Virus record (IMG/VR): IMGVR_UViG_3300042336_000044
Coordinates: 1-40,942 of that record
Source: a virus
DNA length: 40,942 nt
Direction: 5' to 3' (one strand)
The position numbers were made by a program, and so were the translations under genes. The notes under the pieces were generated by a model, which worked only from the letters and a program-made list of their open reading frames with translations, had not been told where the DNA came from and ran no database searches. Below, piece by piece: positions 12,153 to 40,942 of this stretch. Positions within the stretch are counted from its first letter, which is position 1. Each line of letters begins with the position of its first letter.

Positions 12153-12917
12153 GTGAATGGAAAATTTATGCTTTTACAGCCAAAAAATTGGGCCGTCTTT
12201 CAACATTACAAAGACCGTTGCCCACCGTGGATCAAACTCCATCGTGACCTCTTAAATGACCGTGTATTTATGTGCTTGCCACTTGCTAGCAAGGCGCTAG
12301 CACCTTTGCTTTGGTTGCTAGCATCAGAGTCTAAAGACGGGACTTTTGATGGCTCACTAGATGAGCTAGTGTTTCGATTGCACATAACACCTAAAGACTA
12401 CCAAGATGGCGTTAAGCCGTTGATTGATAAAGGTTTTTTTGTTGTTGCTAGTGGAGTGCTAGCAGAGTGCTATCAAGATGCTATCCCAGAGACAGAGGGA
12501 GAGGGAGAGACAGAGAGAGAGACAAAGACAGAGCAGAGGCAAAAAAGCAATCGCGGTTCGCGCTTGCCAGTGGACTTTGTTTTGCCAGATGATTGGATTT
12601 CTTTTTGTCAAACAGAACGCAAGGACTTGGTTCCCGCAAAAGTCTTTGACGAGTTTAAAGATTATTGGATTTCAGTTCCAGCAAATAAAGCAACTAGAAC
12701 TGATTGGTTGGCAACATGGAGAAATTGGGTGCGCCGACAAAATGCCCCAAGACAATCCTTTGCCCAACAAGCCGCTGACGTTGCCCGAACAACAGTCCCT
12801 GCCCAACACATTGGTCGTGACCCTGTGCTGCTAAAAATTGAGGCAGACCGTCAGAAGGCTGCGCCCATGCCAGAACACATTCGTCAACAGATCAACCAAG
12901 TCTTGAGAAAAGTATGA
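12153..12917 (+). CDS. replisome organiser / replication initiator, lambda O-like (254 aa)
   Basis: Residues 24-36 (PPWIKLHRDLLND) and the following helices (LASKALAPLLWLLASES, GSLDELVFRL, DYQDGVKPLIDKGFF) form the winged-helix opening seen in phage replisome organisers. Then comes a low-complexity Glu/Thr/Arg linker at about 112-130, and a C-terminal domain (PDDWISFC, FDEFKDYWIS, DWLATWRNWVRR) that resembles the DnaT-like partner-binding module. Such proteins bind iterons at the phage origin and load host helicase. GTG is the likely start (AAGGA just upstream but with only 2-base spacing); ATG at 12168 is the alternative. A GCTAGC cluster lies inside the gene, as lambda ori lies inside O. 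The next gene overlaps by ATGA. Confidence 0.75.
   Translation: MNGKFMLLQPKNWAVFQHYKDRCPPWIKLHRDLLNDRVFMCLPLASKALAPLLWLLASESKDGTFDGSLDELVFRLHITPKDYQDGVKPLIDKGFFVVASGVLAECYQDAIPETEGEGETERETKTEQRQKSNRGSRLPVDFVLPDDWISFCQTERKDLVPAKVFDEFKDYWISVPANKATRTDWLATWRNWVRRQNAPRQSFAQQAADVARTTVPAQHIGRDPVLLKIEADRQKAAPMPEHIRQQINQVLRKV
12283..12464. repeat. GCTAGC iteron-like cluster inside the replisome organiser gene
   Basis: GCTAGCA occurs at 12285, 12296, 12317 and 12458, with near copies at 12365 (GCTAGT) and 12447 (GCTAGT). Spacings of 11, 21 and 11 bases put copies on the same DNA face. The copies fall in two different codon phases (Ala-Ser versus Leu-Ala), so protein selection does not explain them. 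In all, seven CTAG tetramers occur within 180 bases. Likely binding sites for the encoded initiator or for a host factor; inference. Confidence 0.5.
12486..12545 (+). repeat. purine-only low-complexity tract (GAGA/CAGA)
   Basis: The coding strand here is almost wholly A and G with scattered C (repeated GAGAGA and AGACAGAG words). It encodes the charged interdomain linker of the replisome organiser. It could slip during replication and vary in length, or act as an easily unwound or unusual-structure element next to the GCTAGC cluster. Confidence 0.6.
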
Positions 12918-17840: not shown

Positions 17841-18065
17841 TTATTTGTTAGATGCGTAGTTATGCAGGGTCTTCACATAGTCCCTGAATGACTTGTGCGA
17901 CTTGGCATTCATGTACCAAGCCACCACCACAGTGCCAGACTTCCTGACACCCAAGAAGATGCCTTTATTGTCTTTAGACCCTGCGTAGACCCATTGACCG
18001 GGTTGAATGTGCTTATAGAAGGCATCGGGCATGGCCCATACGTTAAAAGCTGGTTGATATTTCAT
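17841..18065 (-). CDS. hypothetical protein, SH3-like beta pattern (74 aa)
   Basis: AGGAG lies 8 bases before the ATG. After MKYQPAFNVWAMPDAF, the run GQWVYAGSKDNKGIFLGVRKSGTVVVAWY looks like a small beta barrel of SH3/KOW type, followed by a basic helix (KSFRDYVKTLHNYA). May bind nucleic acid or protein; not assigned. Confidence 0.72.
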   Translation of the reverse strand: MKYQPAFNVWAMPDAFYKHIQPGQWVYAGSKDNKGIFLGVRKSGTVVVAWYMNAKSHKSFRDYVKTLHNYASNK

Positions 18066-18088: not shown

Positions 18089-18340
18089 TTACTTGCTGAC
18101 TTTGACTGCGTAGGTTTTGACTTTGACTTTGACACCACCTTTAGGGCCAATGGTGAATTGGACAATGAAGTGAGTGTCAAACCAGTGCTTTGACTGTGTG
18201 TTGCTGCCTTGAATGAATACCTTGTCTCCTATCTCATCCATAGTGAAAGTCAACTCACCACCGATGTATTTGCAAGTTTTCCACTCAACATACTCACGTT
18301 TAGTGACTGTCTGTGCTACTTTGATTTGCTTGCTGTTCAT
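18089..18340 (-). CDS. hypothetical beta-rich protein, first gene of the minus-strand operon (83 aa)
   Basis: AAAGGA lies 8 bases before the ATG. Mostly strands: ELTFTMDEIGDKVFIQGSN, FIVQFTIGPKGGVKVKVKTY. Lysine-rich C-terminus. It is the first gene leftward from the DnaA-box region, so its promoter should lie in 18341-18480, which also holds a GGGTAAACCC word and the outermost DnaA box. Confidence 0.72.
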   Translation of the reverse strand: MNSKQIKVAQTVTKREYVEWKTCKYIGGELTFTMDEIGDKVFIQGSNTQSKHWFDTHFIVQFTIGPKGGVKVKVKTYAVKVSK

Positions 18341-18732
18341 AATTTAATCCTTTGGTTTGCTAAACTGTGTATGGGCTGCGTCATCCTGTCCCATGCTTTG
18401 GATTTTAGTGTTATCCACAAAAAACTATTCTTAGGGTAAACCCTATGTTTCTATAGAAAAGTTGCACTAATAGATATGCAAAGCATTTGCAAAAGTTGCT
18501 TGGAATTGCTTGTGTTTTACATAGGCCCATAGAAGCCCCTAAAAGCCCTTTTAAGACGTTTTAGGCTTTGCCCATGCTTACCCCTTAGCAAAAGTTATCC
18601 ACACTGCTAGTGGTATCCATCCACAGATTTTGGTCTTATATAAGACTGACAACCTGTGTATAACTCTGGCCCACATCTTGCACAGCAGTGGATAACTTTG
18701 ATGCGTGTGGGTAACTTGTGGATAATGGCTAG
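18341..18732. other. origin-like noncoding region with DnaA boxes
   Basis: About 390 bases without a gene, between divergent transcription units. DnaA boxes: TTATCCACA at 18411-18419 (+), 18595-18603 (+) and 18717-18725 (-), all perfect; TTATACACA at 18655-18663 (-), a consensus TTWTNCACA match; and one-mismatch copies at 18687-18695 and 18706-18714 (both -). AT-rich stretches (18446-18480, 18633-18644) could unwind. A GGGTAAACCC dyad is at 18434. The orientation switch of the boxes near 18650 gives an inward-facing array, as in bacterial oriC or DnaA-dependent plasmid origins. It could also be a DnaA-responsive promoter control site. Confidence 0.65.
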
Positions 18733-19158
18733 ATGCCCACATCACCACCCACACAGTGCAGCAAGTACAGGTGCAAGCATCCATCCATCAAGGGAAGCAT
18801 CTTCTGTGCAGAGCATTCACCACCTAAGACCACCACCCAAGACCGACAGGCATTTAATGCCCATTACAAGACAGCAGCATGGGCCAAGCAAAGAGCCATT
18901 CAATTATCTAAACAACCACTGTGCCAAGCCTGTTTATTAAATAACCAGATAACCCAAGCAGAACATATAGACCACCTATTTGCATGGTCTGCACTTGGCG
19001 AATATGCCTTTAAATTAAATCTATTTCAAAGCCTGTGTGAATCACATCATTCATTTAAAACAGGTCTTGAATCAAAGGGTATATACAGACATTACACAGT
19101 AAATGGTGAAAAGGATTATTCATTATCCGATTATCAATCTGTAATTACTTCTACCTAG
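18733..19158 (+). CDS. HNH endonuclease beside terminase (141 aa)
   Basis: N-terminal zinc-ribbon-like part (Cys9, Cys14, Cys25, His28), then the nuclease core: QPLCQACLL (Cys64, Cys67), AEHIDHLFA (His78, Asp80, His81) and LFQSLCESHHSFKT (Cys102, His105, His106), a typical zinc-braced HNH of ~75 residues. HNH proteins encoded next to the terminase in HK97-like phages stimulate terminase cleavage at cos. The start codon sits 7 bases after the last DnaA box and lacks a clear ribosome site, so the start is less certain. The gene is AT-rich and CpG-poor, unlike the terminase. Confidence 0.87.
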   Translation: MPTSPPTQCSKYRCKHPSIKGSIFCAEHSPPKTTTQDRQAFNAHYKTAAWAKQRAIQLSKQPLCQACLLNNQITQAEHIDHLFAWSALGEYAFKLNLFQSLCESHHSFKTGLESKGIYRHYTVNGEKDYSLSDYQSVITST

Positions 19159-19411
19159 TATCACCACATCATCACTTATCAATGGCTATTATGTAATGCT
19201 TGTGTTTGCAATACAGCATAGCCATGCCATGCCATCACTCAAAAAGTAGTACCCATACCTTACCAAGTGACGGATTTGAAACTAAAAGTGTGCCGTTTGG
19301 CGTAGGAGCAGGCGCGGGGACGATTGCGTAGAGATGCAAAGTCAAGAGTGGGTGTACGAACTGTCGGTTTGTGGTACGCTAAAGCATGACAAGATAACAG
19401 GAACTAACCTT
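19159..19411. other. HNH-terminase intergenic region, candidate cos site
   Basis: About 250 bases without a gene, in the position where cos lies in HK97-type phages (HNH last, small terminase first). It changes abruptly in composition: CpG-free up to about 19260, then a GC-rich patch around 19300-19331 (GGCGCGGGGACG flanked by GCGTAG at 19300 and 19326). This GC patch resembles cohesive-end sequences of lambdoid phages in style, but no cut site can be proven. The repeated CATGCCATGCC word is at about 19221-19232. Confidence 0.4.
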
Positions 19412-19783
19412 ATGGCAAAAAAACCTCGTCACATTCTCGGCTACTTAAACGACCCTTCCACTTGGGACAGGTCTGCGTTTGAGACTGCTATTCGCGCTGA
19501 AGTCGAAGCCTCGACAGGAACGCTCACGGCATCAGATGAGTTGCTTGTTGGTGCGCTGGTCATTACTGTTGACAGTATGCTGACAGCAGAAATTAACATT
19601 CGTGAGCAAGGCCACACGTTTACTTACAACTCAGGGGATGCCACTAGCCCGTGGTACAAGATTCGTACTGAGATGGCTGACAAGGCTGTCAAGATGTTGG
19701 CTGAGTTGGGGCTTGTTGCCCGTGGTCGCCCAAAGTTGAAGGCAAAAGTGAGTGATGTAGATGAGCTATTCGCCACTGCTTAA
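19412..19783 (+). CDS. terminase small subunit, P27 family (123 aa)
   Basis: Start chosen at the ATG with AGGA 9 bases upstream; an open extension to 19334 runs into the candidate cos region. Helical, with KKPRHILGYLNDPSTWD, a central helix LVGALVITVDSMLTAEINIRE, YNSGDATSPWYKIRTEMADKAVKML and the C-terminal ARGRPKLKAK, which together fit the P27-like family (GHTF/Y..NPW..I...A....L..LGL pattern). It would recognise the packaging site and recruit the large subunit, with which it overlaps by 23 bases. Confidence 0.88.
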   Translation: MAKKPRHILGYLNDPSTWDRSAFETAIRAEVEASTGTLTASDELLVGALVITVDSMLTAEINIREQGHTFTYNSGDATSPWYKIRTEMADKAVKMLAELGLVARGRPKLKAKVSDVDELFATA

Positions 19784-21440
19784 CCCTGCGTTTGAGTATG
19801 CGGTAGCGGTAACTAGGGGTGACATTCAGGCGTGTGAGGATGTCAAACTAGCTTGCCAACGGTTCTTGGATATGGTCGAACGTAAGGATGCGCCTTACGA
19901 GTTTGTTCCTGCCAAGGCTGAACACATCCTGAAATTTGTCAAGTTCTGCCGCCATGTCAAGGGGCCAGATGCCGGGAGGTCAATTGAACTACAGCCGTTT
20001 CAGGTTATGTACTTGGCTGGCGTTTACGGGTTCAGGGACAGGCGTGACCACTCTTTTCGTTATGTCACTGATGTCATTTTGTTCGTTCCTCGTAAGTCAG
20101 GCAAGACAACCATTGCGTCCATCATTGCGCTGTATGAGTTGCAGTTTGGTGATGCTGGTGCTGAAGTGTTTACTCTGGCTACTAACCGGGATCAAGCGTC
20201 TATTTGCTTTGATTCGTCCAAAGCTATCGTAGAAAACATGAAACCCGAGTTGGGAGCTAAGTTCATTGCCTACCGAAGCGAACTGAAGAAGGCTGGCGAC
20301 TCGACTTCTACCTACCGTGCGCTGTCACGCGAGAACCGGAAAACTGGTGACGGTAAGAACCCGTCCTGTGCAATGATTGATGAGGCTGCTCAGATTACTG
20401 AGAGACAGTCTATTGAGGTCTTGCATTCGGGTATGGGCGCTCGAAAGAACCCGCTGCGGATGTACCTGACAACTGCCAGCTTTACTAAGGAAACCAAGTT
20501 CTTTGAAGACCTTTCGCACTACCGTAGCGTGTTGCGTGGCGCTGCTCCTGATAGTCATCGCTGGTTTGGCCTACTTTATAGCATTGACCCCGGCGATAAT
20601 TGGGCTGACCCTGCGGTATGGGGCAAAGCGAACCCGATGCTTGGGATATCGGTCACAACTCAGCACATTCAGCAGATGGCTGAAGAAGCGTCTGCCAAGC
20701 CAGCAAGCCTAAACGAATTCCTGTGTAAGCAGTTGAACATCTATGTTTCGGCTAATTCTGCTTGGGTTGACAGAAGGCATTGGGATGAATCGGTCACTCC
20801 AATGCCGAAAGAAAAGCCTGAAGCTACATTTGTTGCTTTTGACTTGGCTCACACGCGAGATTTGAATGCTGTTTGCACTTTGCACAGATACAGCGAAGAA
20901 GATTTTTATGCCAAGTTCCAATTCTTTCTACCGGAAGAATCTATTGACCTAATCCCAAACCACTACAAGAGCATATTTTCTCAGGCTCATGCAAGTGGCA
21001 TTTTGAGGCTCACGCCGGGTAACGTAACTGACCTGAATGAAGTTGAGTCGTACATTAAACAAGAATGCGAAAAGCACAGCGTTAAAGAAGTTGGCTACGA
21101 TCCATATAACGCAGCCGCTTTAGTGGCTAACCTGTATGCTGATGGTTTGCCTGTCAAAAAGGTTGGTCAGGGTATGGCTATGCTGTCAAACCCGTCTAAG
21201 ACCACTGAGCAATTGATTCTGAAGAAAGCTATCCATCACGATGGCAACCCGTTTGTTGGTTGGCAATTAGGTAACTGCGAGGTTTACACCGATGTCAACG
21301 GCAACGTGAAGGTCAGGAAGAATGAAGCAGACCCGTCAGCCAAAGTGGACGGTATTATTGCCATGATTATGGCTTTGCATTGCCATTTGGATAACGTGTT
21401 TGTCAGTGATTCATTTGGATTTAGAGCAATAGAGTGGTAA
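19761..21440 (+). CDS. terL: terminase large subunit (559 aa)
   Basis: Terminase_1 type DNA-packaging motor of HK97-like phages. Walker A at about residues 109-117 (VPRKSGKTT), adenine/coupling segment TLATNRDQA after it, Walker B near 203-208 (CAMIDE, with Asp207-Glu208), then MYLTTASFTKE. The nuclease domain opens FVAFDLAHTRDLNAV (Asp361, Asp367), with EVGYDPYNAA and a later KVDGIIAMIMAL carrying the third acidic residue. Length is normal. It cleaves concatemers and pumps DNA through the portal. No strong ribosome site; coupling with the small subunit by overlap is likely. Confidence 0.96.
   Translation: MSYSPLLNPAFEYAVAVTRGDIQACEDVKLACQRFLDMVERKDAPYEFVPAKAEHILKFVKFCRHVKGPDAGRSIELQPFQVMYLAGVYGFRDRRDHSFRYVTDVILFVPRKSGKTTIASIIALYELQFGDAGAEVFTLATNRDQASICFDSSKAIVENMKPELGAKFIAYRSELKKAGDSTSTYRALSRENRKTGDGKNPSCAMIDEAAQITERQSIEVLHSGMGARKNPLRMYLTTASFTKETKFFEDLSHYRSVLRGAAPDSHRWFGLLYSIDPGDNWADPAVWGKANPMLGISVTTQHIQQMAEEASAKPASLNEFLCKQLNIYVSANSAWVDRRHWDESVTPMPKEKPEATFVAFDLAHTRDLNAVCTLHRYSEEDFYAKFQFFLPEESIDLIPNHYKSIFSQAHASGILRLTPGNVTDLNEVESYIKQECEKHSVKEVGYDPYNAAALVANLYADGLPVKKVGQGMAMLSNPSKTTEQLILKKAIHHDGNPFVGWQLGNCEVYTDVNGNVKVRKNEADPSAKVDGIIAMIMALHCHLDNVFVSDSFGFRAIEW

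Positions 21441-39557: not shown

Positions 39558-40942
<1,385 letters not shown>

Follow-up and report, generated by a model that had tools for sequence, protein, structure and literature searches.

Phages are usually thought to bypass the control of host replication initiation. DnaA boxes, AT-rich repeats and iterons together make up the origin layout of the iteron plasmids P1, F, RK2 and pSC101 (PMC4980987). The datA locus has two consensus DnaA boxes and four with one misfit; a three-box sequence from ColE1 acts as a DARS, and DnaA is titrated by plasmids that carry boxes (PMC5835720). The DnaA-box-rich DNA at the injection stop signal of phage T5 is thought to mark or pause DNA. The phage locus considered here appears, from its sequence, to be a compact module for recruitment of host DnaA, most likely serving as an auxiliary DnaA-assisted replication start site, a reading that merits a rough probability of 0.45.

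The window, that is the whole stretch of 40,942 nucleotides analyzed, carries a 127-bp terminal repeat, and both this and the 40,815-bp circle that the initial annotation had assumed are confirmed. Positions 18341-18732 are a noncoding gap between a leftward 83-aa ORF (18089-18340, minus strand, an ORF call) and a rightward HNH endonuclease gene (18733-19158, plus strand; phrog_144, E 9.4e-18), which is followed by the genes for the terminase small subunit (19334-19783, plus strand; phrog_83, PF05119) and large subunit (19761-21440, plus strand; phrog_9, E 7.5e-129). Exact TTATNCACA sites number four in the window, and every one of them lies inside 18411-18725, as do two one-mismatch sites. 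The initial description of six boxes oriented inward in a noncoding divergent region is recovered in full, with three perfect boxes, one TTATACACA and two one-mismatch boxes, and with two on the plus strand facing four on the minus strand. Its statement that their density is far above chance also stands, keeping in mind that it is the clustering, and not the total number, that is unusual: the four exact boxes in the whole window are an ordinary total (2.06 expected) and boxes with one mismatch fall short of expectation (29 versus 49.6), but none of 600 Markov-simulated sequences reached a clustering of four exact and six total boxes within 320 bp.

The module core spans 18595-18695. An outlying box (TTATCCACA, 18411-18419, plus strand) is present only in the window and in relatives L001 and L005, and box 1 of the module proper (TTATCCACA, 18595-18603, plus strand) is invariant in the eight genomes of clade A. 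The slot for box 2 (18617-18625, plus strand) is occupied in the window by a degenerate seventh box, CCATCCACA, where other phages have a full box, in most of them TTATCCACA, TTATGCACA or TTGTCCACA. Next is an AT-rich palindrome, GTCTTATATAAGAC, at 18633-18646, with its core CTTATATAAG at 18635-18644, and then, on the minus strand, the inverted box 3 (TTATACACA, 18655-18663), whose fifth position is C, G, A or T across modules, and the inverted box 4 (TTATCCACT, 18687-18695), with one mismatch in the window and perfect in several relatives. Box 5 (TTACCCACA, 18706-18714, minus strand) also has one mismatch and is perfect in L001 and L007, and box 6 (TTATCCACA, 18717-18725, minus strand), which is TTATGCACA in four relatives, is in the window clade eight bases from the start of the HNH gene.

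Seven IMG/VR phages whose HNH protein is 86-96% identical to that of the window all have boxes at unchanged offsets from the HNH start (-138, -78, -46, -27 and -16). At offset -78 the fifth base is A or G and at -16 it is C or G, the remainder of the box being constant, and in L001 the six boxes are perfect. In an alignment of the eight genomes, majority identity is 93% over the module (18575-18700) and 69% over the adjacent noncoding DNA, and the share of invariant columns is 73% and 20%, respectively. The initial annotation had singled out close relatives as the place where absence of the boxes would count against it; there they are, at fixed positions in seven of seven, with the noncoding DNA beside them drifting. 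That these sites are DnaA boxes under selection is thus well supported by sequence comparison. Somewhat further away, in the sister phages G009, G010 and G013, which have a TerL 93-94% identical and a different HNH gene, the DnaA-box cluster was not found, and its absence from sisters with a TerL 88-93% identical argues that it is an exchangeable and dispensable element. G014 and L108 have different DnaA-box clusters upstream of terminase, lacking the palindrome. The DnaA-box trait is, as judged from these alignments, one that is gained, lost and exchanged among relatives.

Pattern searches of IMG/VR, with the window and cultured phages included, gave 43 elements, 38 of them non-redundant. Their order is box 1, box 2, the AT-rich palindrome CTTATATAAG, inverted box 3 and inverted box 4, and the spacing is narrowly set: 22 bp start-to-start from box 1 to box 2 (21 in four), 17-18 bp from box 2 to the palindrome, 19-20 bp from there to inverted box 3, and in most cases 32 bp from box 3 to inverted box 4. 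The search pattern included box 3, with its position 5 left free, and the conservation of this box across groups therefore follows from the way the modules were found; boxes 1, 2 and 4 were outside the pattern. In boxes 1 and 2 of the 38 modules most substitutions are at position 5 (C/G/T) or position 3 (A/G), whereas positions 6-9, at the end of the box, hardly vary. The sites match the DnaA-box consensus TTWTNCACA, in which position 5 is free, with A or G at position 3 of boxes 1 and 2, so that TTGTCCACA is used as well; box substitutions fall mainly where DnaA tolerates change. In several phages (L240, L280, L282, L288, L290, L291, L292 and L304) box 4 is replaced by a LexA-like palindrome, for example ACTGTATATCTATACAGT, a resemblance pointing to possible SOS control near the module.

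A search with the box 1-box 2 pair, in which the palindrome was not used, found the exact palindrome correctly placed at 21 of 117 sites, the expected number being, on a rough estimate, about 0.6. The same search returned many other DnaA-box arrays that lack the palindrome and have up to 15 boxes, and DnaA-box clusters are therefore not rare among environmental phages. Among IMG/VR sequences L437, L452, L414, L444, L439 and L451 there are dense sets of 8-15 exact DnaA boxes in other arrangements. When the palindrome was searched for without the boxes, the matches were mostly to unrelated coding sequence.

BLAST with the gap also matches noncoding DNA of Limnohabitans phage DC31 (76 kb) and of Curvibacter phage P26059A (84 kb), both of them cultured phages whose genomes are large and different from that of the window phage; the papers describing them make no mention of DnaA (PMC12195039, PMC5964084). 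Each of 16 records has a single site consisting of the palindrome plus ACTGA, and in 15 of the 16 it belongs to a full module. Proteome comparison places 19 carriers in about six groups: A, with the window, G001 and G004; B, with DC31 and eight others; C, with P26059A and G023, distantly related to B with about 40 shared genes; D, with G018, G027 and G029; E, with G020; and F, with G031. Members of group A share at most about four genes with members of B or D, and E shares at most three with any group. No gene family common to all 19 carriers was found, the widest being in 13 of the 19, and the shared binding factor is therefore probably host-encoded. A 74-aa protein (17841-18065, minus strand; phrog_21585), encoded in the leftward operon beside the module, is present in 10 of the 19 carriers, in otherwise distant groups. 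The only known hosts are those of the two cultured phages, both Comamonadaceae (Limnohabitans and Curvibacter). That very different lytic phages of freshwater Comamonadaceae exchange a dedicated DnaA-capture cassette, with boxes flanking an AT-rich palindrome and iterons as an optional part, whether decoy, nucleotide switch or start site of new architecture, independently of their own replication proteins, is a tentative generalization, more doubtful than the assignment of the window locus itself.

The module might have come from elsewhere. Recent mimicry of oriC by capture of a host oriC fragment could account for a box consensus the same as that of bacterial oriC, and the cultured carriers do infect Limnohabitans and Curvibacter. 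However, a scan of 84,980 bacterial and archaeal genomes with one fairly strict pattern, which a diverged host element could escape, gave no true match, its two pattern matches being coding DNA in Clostridia, and such capture is disfavored to the point of being scarcely credible. The module was not found in 72,556 plasmids either; the sole plasmid match from the search with the gap is short, weak and outside the module, and a plasmid source has been set aside.

Replicating phage copies of the module could titrate host DnaA or alter its ATP/ADP state in the manner of datA and DARS. Initiation of host replication would thereby be stopped or readjusted, and the module would not be an origin. The module is kept across very different replication systems, including those of phages with their own polymerase and helicase-primase, and is therefore not tied to one initiator; its fixed spacing and conserved center would suit a structured complex, and datA, DARS and titrating box-bearing plasmids are precedents (PMC5835720). 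Yet one copy per genome, sometimes with just three good boxes, would be a weak sponge early in infection, and a decoy would have no use for the iterons and AT-rich repeats that adjoin the module in groups B and D. Titration or nucleotide switching as the main function is less likely than an auxiliary start site, but a serious rival to it.

Those flanking elements recall the layout of iteron-plasmid origins. Iterons of the form GACTN4RGTC, imperfect palindromes with a 20-bp period, come after the module in many group B phages and, within group D, in G018 and G027; the arrays at L321 (G018), L351 (G027) and the DC31-group loci lie 60-450 bp rightward from the palindrome. Several phages of group B have, ahead of the iterons, 16-bp AT-rich repeats, CGCTTATATAAGTAAA, which have the same palindrome core inside them. 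A phage gene tracking with the iterons was searched for and gave no clear candidate. The window has no GACTN4RGTC site anywhere, and its clade lacks adjacent iterons and AT-rich repeats. The least stable DNA near the window module is not unusual (p about 0.10), and minima of melting energy at the module are not significant in most genomes. The initial proposal that the region is an origin is accordingly plausible insofar as the module precedes iterons in two groups, and is weakened by their absence from the window clade; strand asymmetry in the window is compatible with it without favoring it over the rep gene.

Cumulative GC skew has its minimum at the module in group A, group D and G031, but not in B or C; in DC31 and P26059A the minimum is 19-20% of the circle away. 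Since the DC31 minimum sits at the gene-strand switch, 15 kb from the module, skew minima track gene direction, and the GC-skew minimum was rejected as proof of an origin. Asymmetry was calculated at four-fold sites with correction for gene direction. For the window the rep gene (score 9.2) and a position just beside the module (9.1) then fit equally well. The group A skew minimum at the module, where the initial annotation anticipated a switch, is thus compatible with an origin there but does not separate it from the competing position. Third-position asymmetry in clade A is consistent with replication starting somewhere from the rep gene to the module. Corrected asymmetry in G018 is best at the module, and groups B, C, E and F have no such fit; the module ranks 38-43 of 50 as an origin, and is not favored, in those large phages that encode a helicase-primase and a polymerase.

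The competing position is a replication gene of O/primosomal type (12153-12917, plus strand) with two clusters of 11-bp-spaced repeats inside it, at 12273-12302 and 12446-12486. The initial annotation, which placed an initiator gene with its own repeats at 12283-12464, was right about their reality and slightly off in coordinates. The repeats are kept in sisters G013 and G016; the motif is another one in G004, though arranged in the same way, and G001 has a different rep gene with no obvious repeats. These intragenic repeats are the probable origin of the phage's own, of lambda-O type. The suggestion that the phage has two start systems is thus borne out to the extent that a second candidate is real and is kept in sisters lacking the module; that both are used is possible.

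Regulation of transcription has also to be weighed, as in the window and most of the small phages the module lies between divergent operons. DnaA together with a dimeric factor binding the palindrome could control rightward expression of the HNH and terminase genes from a sigma-54-like TGGC-N7-TTGC sequence, the leftward early operon, or both. The conserved TGGCCCACATCTTGC (18667-18681, plus strand) has the GG-N10-GC spacing of a -24/-12 sigma-54 promoter, as a consensus match only. A TGGYN7TTGC-type motif is found in 22 of the 43 elements, and in 21 of the 43 it is at exactly the window's offset. A transcript from such a promoter would have its start and leader within boxes 4-6, and the replacement of the fourth box by a LexA-like palindrome in several phages would also be in keeping with a regulatory site. 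Against this, the DC31 group has no rightward gene after the module, the sigma-54-like motif was not found in groups C, E and F, and the iterons and AT-rich repeats go unexplained, making transcriptional control as the principal role less likely than a start site, though still a live rival. Rfam and tRNA scans gave no matches.

The proximity of the module to a probable genome end raises a further prospect, that, by analogy with T5, it serves as a mark or pause site close to cos while the DNA enters the cell or is packaged. The probable cos site, with an overhang of about 10 nt (CAGGCGCGGG), is at 19309-19318, between the genes for HNH and the terminase small subunit, and is identified from independent contigs of relatives that end ...GTAGGAG on one side and begin GTCAATT... 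on the other. The module is about 0.6-0.7 kb from it, DnaA boxes occur together with repeats and palindromes in the injection stop signal of T5 as well (PMC13250531), and T5-like phages give weak matches within a terminal repeat. In DC31, however, the module is surrounded by leftward genes and the annotation shows no terminase gene close by, and in P26059A it is 11.7 kb from the end of the record; a function at the genome end is very improbable. Close to the terminal repeat of the window, at 39700-40720, there is a long run of 9-bp-based tandem repeats of the GGCCCTACT type, probably a collagen-like Gly-X-Y region of a tail fiber.

An auxiliary DnaA-assisted start would operate as follows. After the phage DNA enters and circularizes at cos, host DnaA would bind the inward-facing boxes on either side of the AT-rich palindrome, oligomerize across it and help to separate the strands, either at the palindrome or in AT-rich DNA beside it; DnaA would then recruit parts of the host replisome, or admit the phage's own helicase, and the module would help early rounds of replication beside the phage's own initiator with the repeats in its gene. 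The boxes, their clustering, conservation and spacing, and their spread among phages with few or no common genes, are observed, and on them DnaA binding, strand opening and the start of replication at the module are predicted. In favor of an origin are the fixed architecture in 38 modules, the single copy per genome in 15 records, the third-position asymmetry of clade A, and the iterons and AT-rich repeats of groups B and D; against it are the repeat-bearing rep gene of the window, the sisters that keep the rep gene without the module, the lack of iterons in the window clade, the ordinary DNA stability and the unfavorable asymmetry of the large phages. Recurrence of a fixed DnaA-binding cassette, once per genome, in phages with few or no genes in common suggests that freshwater phages often target host DnaA. 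The module provides a simple sequence tag for finding such phages, and DC31 with Limnohabitans and P26059A with Curvibacter are two cultured phage-host pairs in which it can be tested.

The literature that could be searched contains no earlier account of this DnaA-binding module, whose distribution over phages of such dissimilar gene content is unusual for a DnaA-box-bearing replication or regulatory element. The module is like the iteron-plasmid origins P1 oriR, RK2 oriV, F and pSC101 in having DnaA boxes, to which groups B and D add neighboring 20-bp iterons and AT-rich repeats; it differs from those origins in the conserved palindrome between inverted boxes, in the absence of adjacent iterons from the window clade, where the rep gene is 6 kb away, and in being carried by phages with no known plasmid stage. 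The window rep gene likewise has internal repeats, as does the intragenic origin of lambda O type, at a site about 6 kb from the module; the lambda origin is not known to contain such a DnaA-box module. With E. coli datA and DARS there is a likeness in the small noncoding cluster of consensus and one-misfit boxes at required spacing (PMC5835720), and a contrast in the central palindrome, the phage location and, in some phages, the adjoining iterons. The T5 injection stop signal resembles the window locus in being a noncoding phage region close to a genome end that combines DnaA boxes with palindromes and repeats (PMC13250531), though T5 belongs to an unrelated phage group with only short sequence similarity, and the DC31 and P26059A modules are away from the genome end. 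For phage sites that serve a host cell-cycle regulator the CtrA-regulated phages of Alphaproteobacteria are a precedent, with a different regulator and a different host group (PMC9437464).
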